The notes under the pieces were generated by a model. It was not told the DNA's origin. It did no database searches and saw only the letters and a program-made list of their open reading frames with translations. From IMG/VR virus record IMGVR_UViG_3300011013_000083, positions 1 through 25,313 of that record: a stretch of 25,313 nt of DNA. One strand, 5' to 3'. This document shows positions 1,918 to 25,262 of this stretch, in pieces (positions within the stretch are counted from its first letter, which is position 1; each line of letters opens with the position of its first letter). Origin of the DNA: a virus. The translations under genes were made by a program, and so were the position numbers.

Positions 1918-1926
1918 ATTATACTA
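1918..1926 (-). promoter_or_regulatory. -10 box TAGTATAAT, 6 nt before the protease ATG
   Basis: The minus strand reads TAG-TATAAT-AAGGTT-ATG. The TAG is also the stop codon of the upstream HNH-kinase gene. With a normal 6-7 nt distance from -10 to start site, transcription would begin at or next to the A of the ATG, giving a leaderless mRNA. No clear -35 box is visible. The same spacing recurs at four other genes here. Confidence 0.55.
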
Positions 1927-3015
1927 TATTTTAAGGTTATGTAAAAACATTAACACTTCATCGTAATCTCCACTAAACATGGAGTAATTATCCCTTAATG
2001 ATAACATTCTCTTGTATCTTTTTTCTATAAAATTACTATTAATTTTACCATTTCTACTCAACAGTCGCGTCTTTATGACGTCAGGTGACTCTATTAGCAT
2101 GATTAAACTAACATCGTATTTCTTGTTCACATATCTGCCGTATACGGTTGATATATTAGTAGGTATATCTAATAAAATAGGCTTATCATTGTAGTAGTTA
2201 TTGGAAATAAAACTATCTAAATTTTTAATATTAATATCATCATAACTAAGAATCGTGAACTTATCAATTAACTCCTTACACATGGTTGTCTTACCTGAGC
2301 CAAATTGACCACCTAACATGTATAATTTTCTAGGTCTATAATTACCTTCATACTTGTTGTTTTTATCAATATTCTGCCAAGCCCACATGGGCTGTAAGTT
2401 GCTTAATGCCCAACACTCTTTAAACTCAACATCATCAGTACTACTGTATGAGAACCAACTATCAGGGATTTTGTGATCTATATGCCACTTTCCATAGTTA
2501 TCCCAAGTCATGCCTTCTTCAAATAGGTTTTCCAAGTGTTCTTTGAGCTCATCAGGTTTATAGCCTAATTTTTCATATGATATATTGTCTTGCTCCTCTA
2601 CACTAACTTTAAGCATGCTCTTATTAAGTTTGTTCATTATATAGTTTCTTATTTTAAATTGTTCCCCCTTAGTGGGGAATCCTTCAAACTTCTCTCTAGA
2701 TATTCCTTTTTTATTACATACTTTCATTACCCTAGCTTCTAACAACGCTTTCTTATGCTCTTTAGTGAAGTTCACACCCTTTTTAGCTTTAGAAATCTTG
2801 TCACCCCAAGTAATTTTTCTACCTTTCTTACAAGTATTAAAAACACCAGCCTCTGCCGAGCATTTCTTACATAGGCGATGTCGACGACACCAGCGTACCT
2901 CACGCTGACCGTGCTTACATTCGACTATTACTTTAATTGAAGATTGGGGTTTTAATTGATTTACGGAAACTTCTTTTCCGCGATACATTACAGTTTTTGT
3001 GATCACTTTGTTCAT
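1924..3015 (-). CDS. HNH homing endonuclease fused to a P-loop kinase
   Basis: The start is taken as the ATG at 3015. The frame is open to a TTG at 3033, but those codons are the promoter box. The protein has 363 residues. Residues 1-222 are an HNH homing endonuclease. An N-terminal cysteine cluster (C33, C43, C49, C52) is followed by a NUMOD3-like segment (GDKISKAKKG), the shared TWDNYG motif, the catalytic HIDH at 178-181, and a SNLQPMWA segment. The family tail (DKNNKYE) runs without a stop into residues 228-363, a small P-loop kinase with GGQFGSGKTT at 235-244 and a C-terminal helical lid region. The substrate is unknown; a nucleotide or nucleoside kinase or a zeta-toxin-type fold is possible. 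It looks as if the endonuclease stop codon was lost next to a resident kinase gene. Confidence 0.85.
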   Translation of the reverse strand: MNKVITKTVMYRGKEVSVNQLKPQSSIKVIVECKHGQREVRWCRRHRLCKKCSAEAGVFNTCKKGRKITWGDKISKAKKGVNFTKEHKKALLEARVMKVCNKKGISREKFEGFPTKGEQFKIRNYIMNKLNKSMLKVSVEEQDNISYEKLGYKPDELKEHLENLFEEGMTWDNYGKWHIDHKIPDSWFSYSSTDDVEFKECWALSNLQPMWAWQNIDKNNKYEGNYRPRKLYMLGGQFGSGKTTMCKELIDKFTILSYDDINIKNLDSFISNNYYNDKPILLDIPTNISTVYGRYVNKKYDVSLIMLIESPDVIKTRLLSRNGKINSNFIEKRYKRMLSLRDNYSMFSGDYDEVLMFLHNLKI

Positions 3016-3021
3016 AGTAGT

Positions 3022-3030
3022 ATTATACCA
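3022..3030 (-). promoter_or_regulatory. Extended -10 promoter TGGTATAAT, 6 nt before ATG
   Basis: The minus strand reads TGGTATAATACTACTATG: a TGn extended -10 element, exactly 6 nt, then the start codon of the HNH-kinase fusion. This predicts a leaderless transcript. There is no Shine-Dalgarno between box and ATG. Confidence 0.6.
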
Positions 3031-3062
3031 CAAACTAACCTTTGCTGTGATTACTTATTCAT

Positions 3063-3524: not shown

Positions 3525-3837
3525 ATTCTTTTACCTTTTCTACTGCTTTTTTAGTTGTATCTTTGACTGTCTCTACGGATACATTATTCATATGAGCTAT
3601 TTCTTTATCTGATGGGGGATTTGACAAGTAATCTGCTGTATACTTAAAAAAGCAATAATTAGACATTTGATGGTTTATCGCCCAAGGACAACCTGGTAGA
3701 AGTGCTTCTTCTTCTTCTATGAATTCTTCTTCAGAGTTACGTAAAGCCTTTAGCCTAAGAACAGCTAAAGGACAATATTCACAGGGAAGCTCTGATAATT
3801 TTCTAGGACACCGCGGATCCATTTTCTTATTCTTCAT
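3487..3837 (-). CDS. Cysteine-rich, HTH-like protein, 116 aa
   Basis: This 116-residue protein has five cysteines in its first 62 residues: C10, C19, C22 (PCEYCPL), C50 (PGCPW) and C62 (NYCFFKY). That pattern suggests a zinc site or possibly an iron-sulfur cluster. Residues ~75-105 (SDKEIAHMNNVSVETVKDTT) resemble a helix-turn-helix like sigma region 4 or a small DNA-binding regulator. A role as a transcription factor or an RNA-polymerase-binding protein is plausible but inferred. Its ATG overlaps the end of the upstream HNH gene, which was apparently inserted precisely in front of it. Confidence 0.7.
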   Translation of the reverse strand: MKNKKMDPRCPRKLSELPCEYCPLAVLRLKALRNSEEEFIEEEEALLPGCPWAINHQMSNYCFFKYTADYLSNPPSDKEIAHMNNVSVETVKDTTKKAVEKVKEFELIKSISETRS

Positions 3838-4480
3838 ACTTAGCCCCTTTACTTAAATTATCTTTAGCCCATAATGGTTGCAGATTACTATAATGACAAG
3901 CTTTGAGGAGCTCTTCTTCATCCTCTAAATTAAAAGAAGCTAATGGCTTAATGTGATCTATGTGCCAACCTTTTAAGCCATAGTTATCCCAAGTCATTCC
4001 CTCTTGAAATTGATCTTCCAGGTGTTTCCTTAGTTCTTCTATAGTACAGCCTAAATCAGATACAGCTGAACCAGTTTTGTAGTTATTGTTAATAGCTTTA
4101 TTTAATCTAGATCTTAATACATGCTTTAGTTTATAGTTTTTATCGTTATTGTACTTTTTAATGTGTATATCTGCATATTTTTTTTTAATCTTATCTTTAT
4201 TTTTGTCATACCAAATTTTCTTTAACTTCGATACTTTATGTGGATTTTTACTCTTCCATTCTAAGCTTTTTTTATTTACATGTTCTTTATTTTTATCTTT
4301 CCAAGCTTTTATGTAAATATTTTGCTTATTTATTCTTTCTTTTGCGTAATCAGGGTCTTTCATTCTTTTTATGTTATTGTTCTTCCAATCGTCTCTTCTT
4401 TTTAAAGTATAGCAACTTGAGCACATTTTAAGTCTAACGTGATCTATGTTGTTACTTTTACATTTTATACACTTATTCAT
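3827..4480 (-). CDS. HNH homing endonuclease, 217 aa
   Basis: This is a free-standing HNH endonuclease. It has an N-terminal zinc finger (C4, C7, C20, C23), a very lysine/asparagine-rich middle (residues 30-120) that probably contacts DNA, and a C-terminal catalytic domain with TWDNYGLKGW, HIDH at 173-176 and the helix CHYSNLQPLWAKDNLSKG. The DNA of the catalytic part is nearly identical to that of the HNH gene at 9235-9816, so the two share recent ancestry. The ATG overlaps the stop of the NadR-like gene, and the stop region overlaps the ATG of the 116-aa gene. It has been inserted without breaking either neighbour. No separate promoter is seen. Confidence 0.93.
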   Translation of the reverse strand: MNKCIKCKSNNIDHVRLKMCSSCYTLKRRDDWKNNNIKRMKDPDYAKERINKQNIYIKAWKDKNKEHVNKKSLEWKSKNPHKVSKLKKIWYDKNKDKIKKKYADIHIKKYNNDKNYKLKHVLRSRLNKAINNNYKTGSAVSDLGCTIEELRKHLEDQFQEGMTWDNYGLKGWHIDHIKPLASFNLEDEEELLKACHYSNLQPLWAKDNLSKGAKYEE

Positions 4481-9234: not shown

Positions 9235-9816
9235 CTAATCTTCGTACCTATTTCCCTTACTTAGATTATCTTTGGCCCACTTAGGTTGTAAGTTACTTAA
9301 TGACCAAGATTCTTTAAATTGATCACAATCCATGCTGCTGTAGGTGAACCAACTATCAGGAGTTTTATGGTCTATGTGCCAACCTTTTAAGCCATAGTTA
9401 TCCCAAGTCATTCCTTCTTGAAATTGACCTTCTAAGTGTTTCTTTAGCTCTTCTATAGAGTAACCTACTTTTTTTAAATATGATTCGCCCTTTTTACATG
9501 ATCCTCTATTAAATAATCTACCTCTTATAGCAGAACTCATATTGCATCTTAATACGAGTTGCTCTTTAGAATAGAGGCTAATACCCTTATTCCAAACTTT
9601 ACACTCGCTTTTTGCTTTGCTCATTTTTTCTCTATATTCAAGTGTTCTTTTACCTTTTAAATAATCTCTCCCCTTGTGGGCACAGACTTTACATAGTGTA
9701 TTAGATCTAGATTTCATACCGTATCCACGCTTTTTATTACAACTATCACAATACAACATATATCTTTTTGTCTTTTTTAGTCTACCTATGTACATAAAAT
9801 CATTCAAATCAACCAT
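9235..9816 (-). CDS. HNH homing endonuclease, 193 aa
   Basis: This HNH endonuclease lies between the second terminase piece and the portal gene. It has an N-terminal zinc finger (C23, C26, C42, C45), a NUMOD3-like segment (YREKMSKAKSECKVWNKG), TWDNYGLKGW, the catalytic HIDH at 147-150 and SLSNLQPKWAKDNLSKG at the end. The catalytic half is nearly identical at DNA level to the HNH gene at 3827-4480, while the N-terminal halves differ, so the DNA-binding part has been swapped. A -10-like box TGTAAT lies exactly 6 nt before the ATG. It probably cleaves an HNH-free allele of this terminase-portal junction. Confidence 0.93.
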   Translation of the reverse strand: MVDLNDFMYIGRLKKTKRYMLYCDSCNKKRGYGMKSRSNTLCKVCAHKGRDYLKGKRTLEYREKMSKAKSECKVWNKGISLYSKEQLVLRCNMSSAIRGRLFNRGSCKKGESYLKKVGYSIEELKKHLEGQFQEGMTWDNYGLKGWHIDHKTPDSWFTYSSMDCDQFKESWSLSNLQPKWAKDNLSKGNRYED

Positions 9817-9859: not shown

Positions 9860-11374
9860 TTAGAGTGACCACAAAAAACCTCCGCCACTGGACCAATCAT
9901 CATCGTCGTCATCTAAGTCAGATAATTTACCAATTTTACCTAATTTAGATAAATCTGGTTCTTCAGTTTCTATCTGTATTCCATTTGCTGCGGCAAATTC
10001 TTCTGCTGTTGGTGTTTTATAGTAACTGCCTCTACTATCTATTGTGGCTTCTTTTTCTACATCTGTAGTTTTGCCTAGAACCATAGTTCCTTTGCCCATG
10101 AGCATAGTAAGTGGATACCGAAGAGCATCCAACCAGTGATCATACTCGGACTCTGGTCTTTCTGTAATAGTTCCATCTGCCGATGTCTTAAAGTGATAAG
10201 TTAAAAACTCGTCCTTTAACGGGCCAGTTGTCTCTTTGGCTAGATGTATTTTCGTATCTTGTGTTCCGGGTACTCGTAATAATTTCTTAATAACTTGGAT
10301 ACCTGTATTAATAGCTTTATCATTATCAGGTGAAACTGGCAGTCCAGCCTTTCTCATTTCAGTAACAGCACCTTGATCGGCAATATCTGGAAAGTATAAC
10401 TGACATCTATATTTATGGTGATATCTAGTTTTAAGATAGTGAATCCACTCTGGCTGTGACACGTATGTCATACCATCAGCTCTAACTATAAAAATATTAT
10501 CTTTTTTGTCTACAAAGAAGTAAACAACTGTATTTGGATTTGACCAACCCCAGTCGACTCCAGCATAGCATTGTAATTTCATTGCATGGCATTTTTTAAC
10601 GAATATATCATGGGTACATTCTCCAGGATAGTCTATTCCTGTTAATGTTTTCCACATTCCATTCCACTCTTTGACGTGGATTTTCTCATCAAATTCTTTA
10701 TAGATAATACCTTCAACTGAAGGTTTAAGATTCATAAGTTGCGACAATGCCCAGTCAGTACCTTCTGATCTTACTTTCTTGATAAGTTCTCCAACTGGCT
10801 TTAACATCCAAGATTTAGATACTTGCTTCTTTGCATCACCTATACATATTGCTGCAGCAGGACACTTTAAGCACTTTTCACCTGGCATTATGTGCTTAGT
10901 ATATTCTTTTTGTTTCTTTGGATCTTTTAACTTAAATGTATCTTTATCAACAACTTCCATGTCGTCTAAAATGTGATATGATTCGGTCGGAATTGTTCCA
11001 GATCGTTCATCGGGACATGCTTGTGTAAATTCCCATGCTGTCCACCTACGAACATGACGACCTGCATCTTCAGCATCTTCCATCATCTTGTTCATTAGTC
11101 CATATCTAGACTTACGTGTAGAAATCCCTACTCTAAGAGCAATCTTGTCACCCTTTGAATCAAGCATACCAGAAATCTCTTTAAAGGCCTTTAGACCTTC
11201 ACCAGAAACGGTATCGATCTCATCTGTCACAACAAGTGGAACGTGCGGACCGTTGCAATTCTTATGAATGTAATTGCTACTAATATAAGAATTAGTTAGA
11301 TCACTATTATTTCTTGCAACCTCTATCTGAACAACCTCTTGTTTACCTATATTGGTTATCTTATTAATTTTCAT
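9860..11374 (-). CDS. terL: Terminase large subunit, C-terminal gene (split intein C part + second half of TerL)
   Basis: This 504-residue protein begins with a 39-residue split-intein C fragment ending IHKN, followed by Cys40 as the first extein residue. From there it is a large terminase. The Walker B is at 47-52 (LVVTDE), and a coupling segment follows (KIALRVGISTRKSR). A four-cysteine site occurs (C120, C168, C171, C177). The RNase H-fold nuclease has D274 (GVDWG), D330/D333 (PDIAD) and D416 (YDHWLDALRY). Walker A is on the other gene (12789-13595), so function requires trans-splicing: 177 + 465 extein residues make a 642-residue TerL. The ATG overlaps the end of the homing endonuclease gene and has an AAAGG site. 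It can be transcribed from the endonuclease promoter. Confidence 0.93.
   Translation of the reverse strand: MKINKITNIGKQEVVQIEVARNNSDLTNSYISSNYIHKNCNGPHVPLVVTDEIDTVSGEGLKAFKEISGMLDSKGDKIALRVGISTRKSRYGLMNKMMEDAEDAGRHVRRWTAWEFTQACPDERSGTIPTESYHILDDMEVVDKDTFKLKDPKKQKEYTKHIMPGEKCLKCPAAAICIGDAKKQVSKSWMLKPVGELIKKVRSEGTDWALSQLMNLKPSVEGIIYKEFDEKIHVKEWNGMWKTLTGIDYPGECTHDIFVKKCHAMKLQCYAGVDWGWSNPNTVVYFFVDKKDNIFIVRADGMTYVSQPEWIHYLKTRYHHKYRCQLYFPDIADQGAVTEMRKAGLPVSPDNDKAINTGIQVIKKLLRVPGTQDTKIHLAKETTGPLKDEFLTYHFKTSADGTITERPESEYDHWLDALRYPLTMLMGKGTMVLGKTTDVEKEATIDSRGSYYKTPTAEEFAAANGIQIETEEPDLSKLGKIGKLSDLDDDDDDWSSGGGFLWSL
11258..11374 (-). other. Split intein, C-terminal fragment (39 aa)
   Basis: Residues 1-39 contain an intein F block (QEVVQIEV) and a G block ending IHKN before Cys+1. 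The terminal Asn and the +1 Cys needed for splicing are present. The penultimate residue is Lys instead of the common His, with a His two before the Asn. The start Met is a normal feature of split-intein C pieces. It pairs with the fragment at 12789-13064. Confidence 0.88.
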
Positions 11375-12764
11375 CTATTACCTTTATATATAGTCTTTGT
11401 CCAGCGTCATAGATCTTATGTAGCTTCATGTTTTTAGCCACTTCTTTCTCTGTCTTACCATCTTTAGCTTTACACATTAATCTATTGTATGTGACTTTAT
11501 TATTTGTCCATTTAAACGATAAAATATCATGAGAATGAGTAAAACCTTTATTCTCTAAGTGTTTACCAGTTCCATATCTTAAATCAACCCAATTGTGTAT
11601 TTTTTTTAATTCTAGTTTTTTCTCTAAATAAGATAATAATTTAGAAAAGCCACCAATAACTTGGGTATTCAACGCACTACAAAATCTTTCAACCTTTAAT
11701 ATCTTACTTCTAACAGTATATGACATAATGCATACAAGTTTATCATTAAAGTATAAGCCAACATGTTTTGCATCTCTATATCCCATAAGATGGTTTTCAT
11801 CTAAGAAGCGTCTAACTTCTTTTACTTCTTTTACTTTAGTTTTTCTTCCATATATGACTTGCTCAAAGTTACCTTGTTTAGCTTGTATCATAGAGTTAAT
11901 TATATTTATTTTATTATTTATTTCATCTGCTCTGAACTGTAATATATGCTCACCATTATCCTCAAATACTTTCCTTAAATTAAAATGATAATTTTTATCT
12001 TTAATTTTATCTGAGTGCCAATACAATCCATCTGCGTTTAAATATAACGTATCAGATACTTGAAAATCTGGCCTATATGAGTACTTTGTTGTCGCGCAAC
12101 GTGTGTAACCTTCATCTAACAGTATCTGCTCTATGTCTGTAACTGACGATGTATATCTTGCTTGTATCTTGTTTAAATCTGGACCATATTTATTTATTAA
12201 TGAATTTAGCGTTGTTCTAGGAATGTTTAGTCGTCTTGATAACTCTTTGACTGTAGCACCTTCTACTTTTTTTATTAAACCTTTAGCTATTTTTGTATCA
12301 ACCATCTTTTGACTGATGTTCTTACTCTTCATCGGATTGTCTACGCCATATCTCTTTAACATAGTGGCTTTAGTCTTTTGTGGGTTACATGCATTAATTC
12401 TATTAGGGAGAGATAATGCACATTCATAACCATATTTGTCAAGCATAGTTGCCCTACGCTTAGATAAGCTCTCTGAGGTATGACCAGTTGGATGATTGTA
12501 TCTAGATATGTTTGTAGCTTTTCTCTTATCTTTTACTTCTGATAAAGAATTAGTTTCTATGTTTTTAATTTTTCTTAATAGATTGGCTCTTTTAGGGTGA
12601 TTGGTTTTGCGCTTGCCTACAACATTAGACACTTTAGCTTCCCACTCTCCAAATTCACTATCAATAAATGTAGCGAACTTAGACCAGCGTGTAAATGTAG
12701 AATCTTTTATATCTACATTGTCTATTTTTAACAATTCTAATTTAACATACTCTAAATCTTTCAT
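11364..12764 (-). CDS. Vsr-like (EDxHD) homing endonuclease inside the fractured terminase gene
   Basis: This 466-residue protein lies exactly between the two terminase pieces. Residues ~85-160 carry repeats of the TMLKRYGVDNPMKSK type that are common in phage homing endonucleases. Residues 168-193 form an HTH (ATVKELSRRLNIPRTTLNSL). Residues 228-282 are the catalytic domain of the Vsr-related EDxHD family, with D233 (YRPDF), D245 and H250 (ADGLYWH), H260 (NYH) and D280/E281 (FRADEI). Residues ~305-440 are the GNAT-like domain often fused to these enzymes (LMGYRDAKHVGLYFNDKLV...GGFSKLL). It would cut an uninterrupted terL and spread the intein-endonuclease cassette. An extended -10 box sits 6 nt before its ATG, and its stop overlaps the next ATG. 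Confidence 0.9.
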   Translation of the reverse strand: MKDLEYVKLELLKIDNVDIKDSTFTRWSKFATFIDSEFGEWEAKVSNVVGKRKTNHPKRANLLRKIKNIETNSLSEVKDKRKATNISRYNHPTGHTSESLSKRRATMLDKYGYECALSLPNRINACNPQKTKATMLKRYGVDNPMKSKNISQKMVDTKIAKGLIKKVEGATVKELSRRLNIPRTTLNSLINKYGPDLNKIQARYTSSVTDIEQILLDEGYTRCATTKYSYRPDFQVSDTLYLNADGLYWHSDKIKDKNYHFNLRKVFEDNGEHILQFRADEINNKINIINSMIQAKQGNFEQVIYGRKTKVKEVKEVRRFLDENHLMGYRDAKHVGLYFNDKLVCIMSYTVRSKILKVERFCSALNTQVIGGFSKLLSYLEKKLELKKIHNWVDLRYGTGKHLENKGFTHSHDILSFKWTNNKVTYNRLMCKAKDGKTEKEVAKNMKLHKIYDAGQRLYIKVIDEN

Positions 12765-12770
12765 ATCTAT

Positions 12771-12779
12771 ATTATACCA
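12771..12779 (-). promoter_or_regulatory. Extended -10 promoter TGGTATAAT, 6 nt before ATG
   Basis: The minus strand reads TGGTATAATATAGATATG in the 24-nt gap between the terminase N gene and the endonuclease gene. No -35 box or Shine-Dalgarno is seen. It predicts a leaderless mRNA for the endonuclease that continues into the terminase C gene. Confidence 0.6.
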
Positions 12780-12788
12780 GACGTTCCA

Positions 12789-13064
12789 TTAGTCGCCAGT
12801 CTTAATGATGTCATGATCCTTTGTTAGATTTTGTAATTCAATCCAACCTTCATTAGTCCACACTTTGTGATCTAATGTTCCTTCTATAATGGTGCCATCT
12901 TCTAGTTCTACACGAAGACATTCAGCCATTTTCTTCTTAATATCTATTACTTCTGTGTGTCCTTGTGGACTCTCTATGTTATCTCCAACCTTAATGCCAC
13001 CTATAGTATTTTTTTTCCAATTGTTGTTTACATATTGATTTACTGGCATAGTACTGACTAGACA
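12789..13064 (-). other. Split intein, N-terminal fragment (91 aa)
   Basis: The fragment begins with Cys178 (CLVSTMPVNQY) and contains KVGD and the block B TxxH (TLDH) needed for the N-S acyl shift. It then stops in the place where an inserted endonuclease domain would begin. The segment HKVWTNEGWIELQNLTKDH closely resembles HKVLTDKGWIEAQNLNKDH of the polymerase intein in this genome. Confidence 0.9.
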
Positions 13065-13595
13065 GGCTTTAAGTGTACAAGGAAGCACTTCTAGTGTCAC
13101 TGGACGTCCATCTACATTGAATGCAGACTTCTCCATGTTTAGTTTCTGAAGAACTCTATCTTCTTGTAATAACTTCTTATTATCTATAATAGGACGAATT
13201 CTCTGATTAAGCATAAAATTTGTTTGATATTCATAACAACGCTTTGCCTGAGCAATAACTGCCCCAACGTGACAAACATCTCTACTGTCATGTAACATTA
13301 CTAACAATTCGGCAATTGCCATACCGAGAGTTTTTCCAGAACCTCTTCCAGCTACATATAGCAACTCTTCAATGTCTTCTGGATTTCTTTTATTTACAGT
13401 AATATCATAAACTTCCCAAATAATCTGCAAAGGGTTAGTATCTGCGAATCGTGAAACTGTGTGATCTGGTAAGTGCATACCAAAAAACACTTGAATAAAC
13501 TTAGAAAGTTCTTCTTTAGTTTCGCATTTTTTAAAGAATAGTTTAGATCTAACCTTAAGAGGTATCTTGGCGAGATCAACGTTATGATTAGTCAT
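12789..13595 (-). CDS. terL: Terminase large subunit, N-terminal gene (first half of TerL + split intein N part)
   Basis: This 268-residue protein has two parts. Residues 1-177 are the N-terminal part of a phage large terminase ATPase, with Walker A at 83-89 (GRGSGKT) and the usual following helix, ending at VLPCTLKA. Residue C178 begins an intein N fragment of 91 residues, with the block A/N2 region ending GIKVGD and a block B with TLDH (GTIIEGTLDHKVWTNEGW), ending in TGD and a stop. Joining KA to CNGPHVPLVVTDE of the other gene restores a normal terminase sequence between Walker A and Walker B. The start overlaps the end of the 100-aa gene (AATGAC). The product is inactive alone. Confidence 0.94.
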   Translation of the reverse strand: MTNHNVDLAKIPLKVRSKLFFKKCETKEELSKFIQVFFGMHLPDHTVSRFADTNPLQIIWEVYDITVNKRNPEDIEELLYVAGRGSGKTLGMAIAELLVMLHDSRDVCHVGAVIAQAKRCYEYQTNFMLNQRIRPIIDNKKLLQEDRVLQKLNMEKSAFNVDGRPVTLEVLPCTLKACLVSTMPVNQYVNNNWKKNTIGGIKVGDNIESPQGHTEVIDIKKKMAECLRVELEDGTIIEGTLDHKVWTNEGWIELQNLTKDHDIIKTGD

Positions 13596-15351: not shown

Positions 15352-15360
15352 ATTATACCA
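15352..15360 (-). promoter_or_regulatory. Extended -10 promoter TGGTATAAT with 18-nt leader
   Basis: An exact TGG-TATAAT lies in the gap between the gp47-like gene and the 147-aa gene. Here 18 nt, including an AGGAGAG ribosome site, separate the box from the ATG, so translation would be conventional. It probably starts the packaging transcript. Confidence 0.6.
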
Positions 15361-20216: not shown

Positions 20217-23200
20217 CTATTTGATGATTTCAATTTCTTTAATATTTATACTTACCGCTTGCCTCCAACCTTCCTTTAAGGTTCCTCTCACATAAACAAT
20301 ACTGTTTTCCGGATAGCGCAGTGACTTTTTCTTATTCCAGTCTACACATTCTAAATTTGAGTAACCATCAGAAAGTCTAATATTAAGCATACAATAATCC
20401 TTACCAGATTTCTTTGATATACCCTTTCTAATATTGGAACCTTCATATAGCATTATCATTCCAATCTCTCCTTTAAATCCTTTGTTCACTAAGCCTTCAG
20501 CTATCTTAATATTATTAATGATTGTAGTTGTATCACCATTAGCTCGTGGCATTAAAAATGGTGCACCTTTATTTCCAGTTTCTATAAGATGCGGCCATTT
20601 AGATTTTAAGTAGTCCTTCACATCAGCATCAGCTAGCAAGTGCTTATTAAAAGTCTTATTCATTTCTTTTTCCATAAAGAATATAGTTAGTGGGTTAGTA
20701 TCTTTTACATCTGGTTTCCATGCAATTTTACCACCCCTAAGTGAATTATATTCAGCTAAGAATGCTAATCTCTGATCTGCATATGTAGGTAATGTTTTAT
20801 CCATAAAAGAATCAGCTGCTCTGGCTTTTACCATTGCCTCCACAACACCTTTATTAACTTTGCGATGTTCTACTCTCAGGACGTAGTCTGTAAGATCGAC
20901 AAATGGACCTTTAAGAACTAGCTCTTGTACAGCTGTTGGCCCAACTCTCTTAATTGCAGAAATTGGAGAAGTAATAGAATCACCATCTACCTTAAAAAAT
21001 TCAGATGGATCTTTCATTGAAGGCGGCTTAATAGTGTCACCTAATAATGATATAAATCCTCTTACCTTATCTTCTTTACCTTCATTATTTAACACTGCTG
21101 CCCACCACTCTAATGGGTGATAATGCTTCAAGTACATAGTTATGTATCCCAACTCAGAATAACAATGACTATGTGATCTGTTGAACGAGTATCTAGAGAA
21201 CGCTTGAATAGTAGAACATAATGCATCTTGCTGCTCAATTGTCCAACCTTTTGCAGCTGTTGCCTCTCTGATTCTTTCAAATGCAGACATCATAACATCA
21301 TGCTTTTTCTTTGCAATTGCATCTCTAATGCGATCTGTTTCTTCAAGTGTATAACTACAAATACCAACTAAGATTGCCATCACCTGTTCTTGGAAGCAAT
21401 TATGAACTATATTTCCACCAGCTAAAAAACTATGATTATTCTCAACTGTTATATCAAAAACCCTAACCTCTTTATTAGCCTTAATAGACAAAACATTAGA
21501 CCATTTAATATGCTTGTTTTCTAAACATACTATTTTTTCGCATATACTTTTTGGTATAGACTTGTCTTTAAACTTGTTTGAAAAATGCTGTCTAATATTA
21601 CCAAGATCACGTTTAACCCCTTTATATTCATTTATATAATACCTAGGTACTCTTATTGAATAATTTTCTTTTTTAACCTTATCGAACTTTAATGGTAGCC
21701 TACTTATATCTCTAATTGCTACACAATATACACCATTATCTTCAAAATAAGATGATTCAATTCTAAAACTATCTAAAGCTTTATATATATCATAAGCCAA
21801 TTGTTGATTGCTTAATCTCATTAAGCCATTCTGTGCACAGCCATCGCCATCAAAAAAACCAGCCAACATGGACAATGAATAAGATTCTGGTAAAAACTTT
21901 TCTTTACACCTTAAGTTGTGTATACCCATTTTTTTAGCTAATAATTTAATATTATTTTCTTGATAATTTTTACTAAAATAACCATTGTTAGAATTGGCTT
22001 GTCTAAGATTGGCATACCAGCATCTTCCTCTATATTCAGAAAACCCTCCCTTAATACCAAATTCTTTAGTTGCTATATCAACTACTATATCTGCGTTTTC
22101 TTTTGAGCTACATGCTACATCGTATGAACTACCACAAAGGTTACCATCAGCAAGTAAAAGACCAATTAGCCAGTCTTTATTATCTCCAATAGTGCGTCTC
22201 TCTTCTTGAGTCCAAAAACTCTTAACTAAATGATCTTTATTTAAGTTTTGCGCTTCAATCCAACCTTTGTCCGTTAAGACCTTATGATCCGGAGTACATA
22301 CTAATTCTTCACCATGTGATAATCTAATTCTAAGAGTTTCTTTAAAACCATTATCAAATTTTGCCAATACATTCTGGTATGAACCATCTTCAGTTAACAC
22401 CTTATCAAAGGGCTTAATATCAGATATGTTAATTTGCCCCCTATCTGTTAAAACTTTAGTATCTGAAGCAACACAGCAAACGCCGTATGTTTCCTCTAAG
22501 TATTCTTTTAAATCTGGGTGTATGTATTTAGGTTCTCGTTTGCCCATACGGACATCCATATACCATTGAGTAGCTGAAATACCCGATTCCATCGTCGAAT
22601 CCATTGCTCCAGGACGAAGTAGGGCTGTCATGATCGATAAATGTCCTCTTTCAGAAGGAATAAATTGTGTAACTGCATTCTTGACAACATCAGTATTGAA
22701 TTGGAATGAAGAATCTGTTTTTTTGTTGTAGAAATCAGCGTATACAGACTCATCTTCTGGAAGTCTATATATTAATGCCATTCCATTCTCATCTGGCTCT
22801 AAATAATTAACTGTATCTTTTAATGAATTAACACAATCAGTTACCATTGCCATTGTGTTTAGTCCTAGAATATCAGCCTTAACTAACGCTGATTTCTCAA
22901 CCATCTTAGCATTATATTGAGTCACAAGAATATTTGCATGCATGCCATTGTCATACATTGTAAGAGTTGGAACACGGCCATCTTGAAGATTAAGTGTTGA
23001 TATAACGAATGCTGATGCGTGTCTAGACCATCCTCTAACAATACCTAAGAGATTCTTTACTAAACCCTCTATATCTGGATAGATATCAAAGAAGTTGCGT
23101 AACATCTCATTCTCATCCATCTGGCCAACATGCTTTATACCCTCTCTATCAGTGTATCCATATAGAAAATCAACCTCATCAACACCTTGTGGCGAATCTG

Positions 23201-25262
23201 GAATTGTTTTACAAACGGCATCGATCTCAAAGTCTTTACGATTACGACCATATACAGCCATCATTGCGTCTTTAATTGCGTTCTTCGTCTTCATTGTTGA
23301 GAATGTAGAGATTTGTGCGAATCCTAATCCATACTTATCTTTAAGATAATTCATAACGTGAGGACGTGCTGTTCTAGATATATCCATATCAATATCTGGC
23401 CATGAGCCTGCTCGAATACGAGCATGTGATAAAAATCTCTCAAATGGAAGATGTGCTGCAACAGGGTCGACATGAATGATTTGTAAATAATAAGATATTA
23501 AACAACCACCAGCTGAACCCCTTCCCAATGACTGAAGAAAACCTGCATCTCTTGAATATTGAGATATATCTTCATATACTAAGAAGTATGGAATAAAATT
23601 CATAGCCTCATTCTTCATGATTACATCTAGTTCTTTTTTAAACCGCTCTACGTAAACTGGATCATCTTTCCACCTGCCATGTCCCTTTATTTTTTCCATC
23701 ATCACATAGTAGGTTTGCTTGTCATAGTCATCGGTTTTAGCCTTGATATAATCAGGAACCTCTATTTCTGGTAAGTGGAAATTAAATTTAATATCAACTG
23801 ATTTAGCAGCGTTTGTTATATCTAAAGTATGTTGAACCCATTTACTATATTCAAATTCAGTTAGTTTATCACCTAAATGAATTTTAAGTTCTTTAAAAAT
23901 TTGAACAGTATCTTTTATATGGTATGATTCATGAAAGTGAGTACCGTCTTTATGGGCATTCTTAGATAAGCAATCTTGAACTAGTTTATCTTCTGGTTTA
24001 ATGAAACAAGCACCTGATACAGGAATACAGTGTCCACCGAACTCAGCCCACATATCAAATAAGAAGTTATTGTATGCTTTATTTAAGTTACCATCAGTCA
24101 CTAATGGATTGTTCTTAACATTCCTAAAACCGATTTTGCCGTCAAATACTCTTGTTATATCTACAGGATTAAATTCAAATAGAATGTCAAAATCAACATT
24201 AAACTGATGAAATCTATCGATTGCTAATTGTTCATTACCTGCTTGGAATGCTTGACCAATTGGTCCTTTAATATCAGAAGATCCAAATCTAAGTCCTTCT
24301 TTATGAGCTTTAACTTGATCTAATGTAACGATTGGTGTTGTAATACCATTAATCTCTTCAGCTGTATTATATCCAATTGAAGAAAGATGAACTATATTAT
24401 TATAACCTTTATTAGATATTGCCCAAGCATTAAGAGTATAGATGTCATCTCCATCTCTTATGTTTAGCCCTGTCCCAGACACTGCTACGGTTTTTTCTGT
24501 ATTTCTCGCAGAATTGAATAATGAAATAGCTGATCCCTGATCTACTACTGAAATACCTGGAATACCATTATCTGCAGCATATTTATACCACTCATCCGGC
24601 AAAGGTACGCCATCTGTCATGTTATATTGAGAATGTACGTGTAATTGTGCCATTTCAGGGAACGCACATTCTGATACCTTAATATCTTCAGTTGAAATTG
24701 TTGGAACATAGAATGTGTCATCTTCATCAAGAAGTCCAGATATAATCTTATCAACTTCTATAGTTGCTTGTATGTCCGACAAGGCATCATGTGCATCAAT
24801 AGGGATTCCATATAGTTCCGCCAGAGTTCCTAGTTTTAAATTTGCTGACGCTATTTTTGTCTTTACCTTTTTAGCTCTATTGAAAGTACAATGAATTGCT
24901 ATATCAAACATTTTAAAGAAGTCTGATGTTCTATTTAATTTCTTAAATGTAGATGCTATAAATTTCTTATCAAATCCTACATTATATCCCGCAATTGTAA
25001 ACTTAACACCAAAGGAATTAACATACTGGACGAACTTCTCAATCATATCTTCTGGTAATTGATATGTACGAAGATCATCCATAGTTGTACCAGTAACTTT
25101 CAAAGCGTAGGGATCAATTGTTCCCCAGTTAATTGGTTGACAAAATTCATTAAAAGATTTTTGAGGTACTCCGTTGATTATCGGAATACATGCGAGTTGA
25201 ATTATATCATTCTTCTTTTCATTAAGACCAGTAGTCTCAACATCTAACCATAAAAAATTCAT
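20217..25262 (-). CDS. DNA polymerase III alpha (C family) with proofreading exonuclease, interrupted by an intein
   Basis: The 1681-residue precursor gives a 1322-residue enzyme after splicing. Residues 1-180 are a DEDDh 3'-5' exonuclease (DVETTGL at 7-13, HDALSDIQAT later). The PHP domain starts at HVHS (208-211) but with substitutions relative to bacterial DnaE. The palm has GRGSAGG and PDIDMDI with catalytic D623 and D625, and the third Asp at D797 (KADILGL). Residues 930-1288 are an intein. After it come QEQVM, FNRSHSHCY, tandem helix-hairpin-helix-like segments and a C-terminal OB fold (~1600-1681). It would be the replicative polymerase, with editing activity in one chain. An AAGGAG site lies 5 nt before the ATG. 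Confidence 0.96.
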   Translation of the reverse strand: MNFLWLDVETTGLNEKKNDIIQLACIPIINGVPQKSFNEFCQPINWGTIDPYALKVTGTTMDDLRTYQLPEDMIEKFVQYVNSFGVKFTIAGYNVGFDKKFIASTFKKLNRTSDFFKMFDIAIHCTFNRAKKVKTKIASANLKLGTLAELYGIPIDAHDALSDIQATIEVDKIISGLLDEDDTFYVPTISTEDIKVSECAFPEMAQLHVHSQYNMTDGVPLPDEWYKYAADNGIPGISVVDQGSAISLFNSARNTEKTVAVSGTGLNIRDGDDIYTLNAWAISNKGYNNIVHLSSIGYNTAEEINGITTPIVTLDQVKAHKEGLRFGSSDIKGPIGQAFQAGNEQLAIDRFHQFNVDFDILFEFNPVDITRVFDGKIGFRNVKNNPLVTDGNLNKAYNNFLFDMWAEFGGHCIPVSGACFIKPEDKLVQDCLSKNAHKDGTHFHESYHIKDTVQIFKELKIHLGDKLTEFEYSKWVQHTLDITNAAKSVDIKFNFHLPEIEVPDYIKAKTDDYDKQTYYVMMEKIKGHGRWKDDPVYVERFKKELDVIMKNEAMNFIPYFLVYEDISQYSRDAGFLQSLGRGSAGGCLISYYLQIIHVDPVAAHLPFERFLSHARIRAGSWPDIDMDISRTARPHVMNYLKDKYGLGFAQISTFSTMKTKNAIKDAMMAVYGRNRKDFEIDAVCKTIPDSPQGVDEVDFLYGYTDREGIKHVGQMDENEMLRNFFDIYPDIEGLVKNLLGIVRGWSRHASAFVISTLNLQDGRVPTLTMYDNGMHANILVTQYNAKMVEKSALVKADILGLNTMAMVTDCVNSLKDTVNYLEPDENGMALIYRLPEDESVYADFYNKKTDSSFQFNTDVVKNAVTQFIPSERGHLSIMTALLRPGAMDSTMESGISATQWYMDVRMGKREPKYIHPDLKEYLEETYGVCCVASDTKVLTDRGQINISDIKPFDKVLTEDGSYQNVLAKFDNGFKETLRIRLSHGEELVCTPDHKVLTDKGWIEAQNLNKDHLVKSFWTQEERRTIGDNKDWLIGLLLADGNLCGSSYDVACSSKENADIVVDIATKEFGIKGGFSEYRGRCWYANLRQANSNNGYFSKNYQENNIKLLAKKMGIHNLRCKEKFLPESYSLSMLAGFFDGDGCAQNGLMRLSNQQLAYDIYKALDSFRIESSYFEDNGVYCVAIRDISRLPLKFDKVKKENYSIRVPRYYINEYKGVKRDLGNIRQHFSNKFKDKSIPKSICEKIVCLENKHIKWSNVLSIKANKEVRVFDITVENNHSFLAGGNIVHNCFQEQVMAILVGICSYTLEETDRIRDAIAKKKHDVMMSAFERIREATAAKGWTIEQQDALCSTIQAFSRYSFNRSHSHCYSELGYITMYLKHYHPLEWWAAVLNNEGKEDKVRGFISLLGDTIKPPSMKDPSEFFKVDGDSITSPISAIKRVGPTAVQELVLKGPFVDLTDYVLRVEHRKVNKGVVEAMVKARAADSFMDKTLPTYADQRLAFLAEYNSLRGGKIAWKPDVKDTNPLTIFFMEKEMNKTFNKHLLADADVKDYLKSKWPHLIETGNKGAPFLMPRANGDTTTIINNIKIAEGLVNKGFKGEIGMIMLYEGSNIRKGISKKSGKDYCMLNIRLSDGYSNLECVDWNKKKSLRYPENSIVYVRGTLKEGWRQAVSINIKEIEIIK
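20243..20250 (-). promoter_or_regulatory. TATAAATA box upstream of the 154-aa gene
   Basis: This is the same octamer as upstream of the capsid gene, 34 nt before the ATG at 20208 and inside the 3' end of the polymerase gene. It could be a late-type promoter. A further copy inside the polymerase gene near 24580 shows that chance occurrences exist, so confidence is low. Confidence 0.25.
21399..22475 (-). other. Cis-splicing intein with LAGLIDADG endonuclease in the polymerase
   Basis: The intein is 359 residues, residues 930-1288 of the precursor. Cys1 starts CVASDTKVLTD; block B has TPDH (VCTPDHKVLTDKGW). Two LAGLIDADG motifs are intact: LIGLLLADG at 1032-1040 and LAGFFDGDG at 1133-1141. The end is VFDITVENNHSFLAGG...VHN before Cys+1. 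All canonical splicing residues are present. Excision joins TYGVC to CFQEQVM, restoring the conserved TYGVxxYQEQVM segment of the polymerase with correct length. The endonuclease would cleave intein-free polymerase genes. Confidence 0.95.

Follow-up and report, generated by a model that had tools for sequence, protein, structure and literature searches.

A terminase gene probably fractured by a split intein around a Vsr-like endonuclease in an uncultured phage, with exchangeable genes at the same codon in its relatives

The broken terL gene and its split intein

The DNA analysed here (the window, 25,313 nt, IMG/VR record IMGVR_UViG_3300011013_000083) is a fragment of the genome of an uncultured phage in which the gene for the large terminase, terL, lies in two pieces on either side of an endonuclease gene. 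The locus consists of three open reading frames, all on the minus strand, at 13595-12789 (268 aa), 12764-11364 (466 aa) and 11374-9860 (504 aa). The first encodes 177 aa of TerL followed by the 91-aa N-terminal half of an intein (IntN), and the last encodes the 39-aa C-terminal half (IntC) followed by 465 aa of TerL that begin with CNGPHVP. Only 24 nt separate the IntN stop codon from the start of the endonuclease gene, whose 3′ end overlaps the C piece by 11 nt. A first-pass annotation of the same DNA had proposed two TerL pieces and an endonuclease at these positions, and translation of the reading frames agrees with it on the sizes of all three proteins and of both intein halves. The features of the locus are as follows.

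13065..13595, minus strand: TerL N-extein, residues 1-177, with Walker A GRGSGKT (84% identity over residues 1-185 to the intact TerLs L020/L021)
12789..13064, minus strand: IntN, 91 aa (CLVS...HDIIKTGD), and stop codon; profile matches to gp41-1 and NrdJ-1
12771..12779, minus strand: extended -10 promoter motif TGGTATAAT; the start codon of the endonuclease gene follows after 6 nt
11364..12764, minus strand: EDxHD/Vsr-like homing endonuclease of the Hef-like kind, 466 aa, with DNA-binding repeats (DUF7487/helix-turn-helix), nuclease core and GNAT domain
11847..12152, minus strand: nuclease core of the endonuclease, residues 205-306; fold matches 3r3p, 3hrl and Vsr
11367..11846, minus strand: C-terminal GNAT-fold domain of the endonuclease, residues 307-466 (predicted fold)
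11258..11374, minus strand: IntC, 39 aa (MKINKIT...YIHKN), with the ribosome-binding site AAAGG inside the 3′ end of the endonuclease gene
9860..11257, minus strand: TerL C-extein (CNGPHVP..., Walker B VVTDEID, nuclease motif DWGWSNP) and stop codon; 88% identity to L001

When the two exteins are joined at KA/CNGPHVP they give a protein of 642 aa, which has the length of the intact TerL of the relative L001 and aligns with it without gaps at 87.5% identity, so that this join, as stated in the first-pass annotation, restores the sequence of a normal terminase. In TerL numbering Walker A occupies residues 83-89, the junction follows residue 177 and Walker B occupies residues 186-192, and the break thus falls, as had also been claimed, between the two motifs and inside the ATPase fold.

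Since all the sequences are metagenomic, and since one terL haplotype of the same population (L032) carries an intein at Walker A, the break could be thought to come from an assembly artefact or a strain mixture that hides an intact or cis-intein gene. However, an independent contig, IMGVR 3300002242_000617 (L004/L019/L034), has the same locus with 11 single-nucleotide polymorphisms in 10.4 kb and no indel, and 11 other genotypes from unrelated samples are broken at the same codon; an artefact is contradicted by both and is highly improbable. An endonuclease gene within an essential gene would also fit a group I intron, or an RNA intron of another type, that encodes an endonuclease, and the terL of ICP1 is indeed split by a spliced intron (PMC10448857). 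Here, however, the window has no Rfam match and hence no conserved intron core, the gap leaves 24 nt at one end and an overlap at the other, and both flanks are coding intein halves. Together these findings contradict an RNA intron and leave it highly improbable.

The motifs needed for splicing, Cys1 (CLVS), the block-B motif GTLDH (TxxH), the terminal Asn and Cys+1, are all present in the window. The intein signal of the N piece in Pfam and NCBIfam is weak; in an alignment of seven IntN sequences from related loci Cys1, the GTLDH block and the tail are conserved, and the profile built from these seven matches two split inteins of solved structure, gp41-1 (E 1.6e-4) and NrdJ-1 (E 0.008). Among L065, L066 and L067, where synonymous sites are unsaturated, the ratio of nonsynonymous to synonymous substitution rates (dN/dS) of IntN and IntC is 0.1-0.34, which indicates purifying selection, as would not be expected of relics. 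Cys+1 is found in every split allele.

These results bear on the possibility that the TerL pieces act together without being joined covalently, the intein halves having become relics, as with Aeh1 NrdA (mobE) or phage 25 gp43A/B. Aeh1 NrdA is a split phage enzyme that works unspliced (PMC2988022), and because such enzymes exist the earlier statement that packaging would be impossible without trans-splicing stays a supposition. The penultimate splice residue of the window, Lys instead of His, also speaks for relics. On the other side stand the conservation of IntN blocks and IntC ends over deep divergence together with purifying selection, the position of the break within the ATPase fold, with Walker A on one side and Walker B on the other, and the Cys+1 of all split alleles, and we consider relics improbable.

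The terL of the window, with its split intein and EDxHD endonuclease in place of a cis intein and with a TerL probably made by trans-splicing, is very likely a fractured gene. This reading of the first-pass annotation has gained support from insertion-free alleles, from other split alleles at the same codon, from the I-Bth0305I-like fold of the endonuclease, from purifying selection and from the fact that no second terL was found in the fractured contigs of 87-135 kb (six records of 87-166 kb were searched, five fractured and one intact). Given the motifs, the selection and the intact relatives, the two precursors are probably trans-spliced into a normal 642-aa TerL.

Several observations weigh against it. 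The IntC of the window ends in IHKN/C, where other split loci have INHN/C or IHHN/C (L159: IHHN/C); the penultimate residue, overlooked in an otherwise accurate description of the two halves, is therefore Lys in the window, where every other split locus observed has His. Npu and Ssp DnaE lack the penultimate His yet splice well, so that Lys may affect the efficiency of splicing but does not disqualify it. The identity of the window IntC to other IntCs is just 29-39%, and in the closest pair, L067/L068, the dN/dS of IntN is 0.58, a value that comes from very few changes. A second terL could lie elsewhere in the genome, the window being a 25-kb fragment. Finally, no other split allele was found in the window's own clade, and homing there is not directly seen.

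The endonuclease in the gap and its expression

The 466-aa gene matches phrog_3339, 'homing endonuclease' (E 4e-48), and also Pfam DUF7487, and its DNA-binding repeats (DUF7487/helix-turn-helix) precede the nuclease core. A search of the PDB with the single sequence gave nothing useful and a profile gave weak matches to T7 endonuclease I only, so that a fold search was needed. The AlphaFold2 model, built with 15 relatives, has a mean predicted local distance difference test score (pLDDT) of 81.6. When the nuclease core was folded alone, the first-ranking Foldseek match was the catalytic domain of I-Bth0305I (3r3p, probability 1.00), and the Z scores of the predicted fold were 8.5 to 3hrl, 7.8 to 3r3p and 5.7-6.2 to Vsr (1cw0 6.2). 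E212, D233, H250 and H260 are invariant across the 15 relatives. The predicted fold of residues 307-466 is that of GNAT, with Z 12.9 to RimI and phage Mu Mom (8bv8) as the first-ranking Foldseek match; a profile of the GNAT part of the 15 relatives does not retrieve 8bv8. The phrog match and the modelled fold support an EDxHD/Vsr-like homing endonuclease, as the first-pass annotation had it, with an I-Bth0305I-type nuclease core and with a C-terminal GNAT domain that was missed there.

The GNAT fold also raises the possibility that the gap gene is mainly restriction-modification-like, combining a restriction-endonuclease-fold (REase-fold) nuclease with a Mom/GNAT acyltransferase so as to protect DNA or attack it, and that the fracture is a by-product. 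The Foldseek match to Mom favours it, as does the interpretation of Iyer et al., who take jumbo-phage Mom domains fused to REase-fold nucleases as modification plus restriction and put the number of momylating enzymes in PA5oct at five (PMC7824862). However, Mom was matched by fold only and not by the profile search, the DNA-binding repeats are typical of homing endonucleases, and the gene sits exactly inside an intein. A relative of the window endonuclease (about 31.5% identity over query residues 196-461) lies within polB of the Pseudomonas phages PA5oct and MIJ3, and in the PA5oct record it is annotated as a Hef-like homing endonuclease between two DNA polymerase pieces. We therefore regard a mainly restriction-modification role as unlikely. 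The literature seems to treat one endonuclease family in two ways, as a Hef-like homing enzyme and as a Mom-REase modification system.

An own promoter for the endonuclease gene, which also reads into the second half of terL, had been proposed as well. The extended -10 motif TGGTATAAT occurs four times in the window (at 3022, 12771, 15352 and 19743, minus strand), always on the coding strand and just before gene starts, and none of 100 shuffles reached four copies. Many relatives also have the copy at 15352 in front of the corresponding gene, and the co-directional endonucleases of L065 and L067 have TATAAT just upstream. The motif thus supports an extended -10 promoter of the endonuclease gene at 12779-12771, while a plain sigma-70 scan of the window showed no excess. 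Three of the copies lie about 6 nt before an ATG, and mRNAs from them may be leaderless, that of the endonuclease probably so. Terminator-like sites in a scan of the window fall within coding sequence and none lies between the endonuclease gene and the C piece; given this and the 11-nt overlap, it is plausible that the endonuclease promoter also transcribes the second half of terL, which would then be under separate control. An AAAGG lies 6 nt upstream of the ATG of the C piece, within the end of the endonuclease gene.

The same codon and other intein sites in related terminases

At the codon at which the window is broken (site B), over 40 distinct related TerLs have no insertion; the codon is occupied in 12 genotypes, which include unrelated contigs and samples and are all split. 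Both intein-free and cis-intein alleles had been suggested as targets of a metagenome search at this site; the former abound, and no cis intein was found among the 12 occupied genotypes. What lies in the gap differs between the split loci.

EDxHD endonuclease alone, in reading direction: the window, L011, L067, L068
EDxHD endonuclease reversed: L159/L035
HNH gene alone: L178
HNH gene and EDxHD endonuclease: L062/L066 group
HNH gene and reversed EDxHD endonuclease: L198
HNH gene and a DUF7487 protein that ends in a different nuclease-like part: L188
PolX-like nucleotidyltransferase and unknown reading frame, no nuclease: L149/L150 and L155-L161 (L149:2369-3776, L155:2370-3798)
Trypsin-like protease, no nuclease: L197:4212-4952, a single 126-kb contig

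The exchangeable and partly nuclease-free content of the gap at one terL codon across relatives is new. In IMG/VR scans, which detect close relatives only, the PolX-like and unknown genes were found only inside split terL loci.

In a tree of 51 TerLs the occupancy of site B changes at least four times, and the sister of the window, L001, is empty. Between L067 and L068, synonymous differences amount to 3% in the intein and 42% in the C-extein. Third positions diverge with distance from the site, differing by 14.5% up to 300 nt away and by 34% farther than 600 nt (Spearman rho 0.20, p 5e-7); in the stretch that precedes site A (the Walker A Lys/Thr point) the two are 77% identical. This gradient is the pattern expected from co-conversion after homing and supports homing in these relatives. 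The +1 residue of empty alleles is mostly Cys in the window's clade and Leu or Val elsewhere, and the Cys could be either a trace left by an earlier loss or a permissive residue that was there beforehand.

Many loci have a cis LAGLIDADG intein at site A. The sibling genome L032, from the sample of the twin contig, matches the window at 99.9% identity over 6.3 kb and has an in-frame cis intein at this site, so that alleles with and without a second intein occur in the population of the window itself; the L032 contig stops before site B. In the L062/L066 group (L062, L066, L070, L076) terL has three inteins, a cis intein at Walker A, the split one before Walker B and a cis intein before DWGWSNP (site C). 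L188 (2860-4101) has a Walker A mini-intein without an endonuclease domain in addition to its split intein at site B. The one hit to a bacterial genome is the terL of a close relative, with a Walker A intein, in a contig of a Flavobacteriaceae metagenome-assembled genome (L199, JALWTD010000010.1), which may be a misbinned phage contig or a weak hint of the host. Among named phages the TerL has distant matches only, the best being Myxococcus phage Mx1.

13331..13332, minus strand: site A, the Walker A Lys/Thr point, empty in the window; cis LAGLIDADG intein there in L032 and others
L032:6001-7620 against window 13233-13334: comparison for the site-A intein
9235..9816, minus strand: HNH/endonuclease-VII-like gene directly behind the C piece, a separate homing endonuclease candidate (phrog_1035, E 4e-6)

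The last of these had escaped the first-pass annotation. It is one of three HNH/endonuclease-VII-like genes on the minus strand (1924-3033, 3827-4480 and 9235-9816) that are similar to one another at the DNA level, and the gene at 1924-3033 has a P-loop-like C-terminal part. The gene for DNA polymerase III alpha (20217-25262, minus strand), with exonuclease and PHP domains, contains a cis intein with a LAGLIDADG domain at about residues 929-1288, and the 25 kb of the window thus hold a second intein-bearing gene.

Proposed mechanism and comparison with known systems

In the scenario we propose, two precursors, TerL(1-177)-IntN and IntC-TerL(178-642), are translated separately, as the reading frames show, after which IntN and IntC would bind, form one Hint domain and splice in trans through Cys1, the block-B His, the terminal Asn and Cys+1 to give the 642-aa TerL. 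The free-standing endonuclease would cut insertion-free terL at or near KA/CNGPH, and repair from an occupied genome would copy the whole block of IntN, gene and IntC; the nuclease fold, the scattered distribution and the co-conversion tract in relatives all point to homing of this kind. As a split intein would be hard to re-fuse, the gap would persist while its content turns over: endonucleases would be exchanged, flipped, combined or lost, and genes of other kinds would move in. The differences in gap content are observed, and we infer the order of events from them.

More tentatively, at somewhat less than even chances, the split intein could be seen as a standing slot in an essential gene: the gap would outlive the loss or replacement of its endonuclease and be filled with ordinary genes that become hard to delete (the PolX-like gene with the unknown reading frame in two lineages, the trypsin-like protease in a third), and the endonuclease may also carry a Mom-like DNA-modifying domain. 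One gene and one codon here offer a natural series of alleles (empty, split with an endonuclease, split without one) in which one can test directly how inteins break genes and how the breaks persist. The site-B family also forms a new set of canonically split inteins, candidates for orthogonal splicing tools, and its survey supplies terL genes with up to three inteins.

Fractured genes, for example the gp41-1, NrdJ-1 and IMPDH-1 loci, were reportedly described by Dassa et al. in 2009. The window resembles them in having an essential phage gene, a canonically split intein and, in the gap, a free-standing endonuclease (in their case often EDxHD/Vsr-like), and its intein halves of 91 and 39 aa compare with about 90-100 aa for IntN and about 40 aa for IntC in those loci. 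It differs in that the host gene is terL, the break lies just before Walker B, the endonuclease has a GNAT domain, and relatives hold other nucleases or none in the gap. The best fold match of the nuclease core is I-Bth0305I (PDB 3r3p), whose PDB entry comprises the catalytic domain only, and we know of no GNAT domain in that enzyme.

In the Pseudomonas phages two polymerase genes flank the relative of the window endonuclease:

PA5oct 216800-223672 (L201): polB broken around the endonuclease relative
MIJ3 123071-131943 (L200): polB broken around the endonuclease relative

The MIJ3 authors explained the polB break by a split intein accompanied by a homing endonuclease (PMC6892783). Host gene and intein are different from those of the window, and the endonuclease there is annotated as HNH or Hef-like.

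Split inteins in the phage large terminase are also known from AceL-TerL, GOS-TerL and Cat-TerL. These are split atypically, with an IntN of 25-37 aa and an IntC of 104-115 aa (PMC11766414), whereas the 91-aa IntN of the window lies outside that range and its IntC has 39 aa. In mycobacteriophages the ATPase domain of TerL is a hotspot for the cis inteins TerL1-a to -e (PMC5050341); site A corresponds to the Lys/Thr P-loop site of TerL1-a (PMC5050341), while site B, unlike the sites of these cis inteins, is split and lies before Walker B. Fractured genes and split TerL inteins are thus both of a known kind, and the site-B family differs from them by the exchangeable and partly nuclease-free content of its gap.

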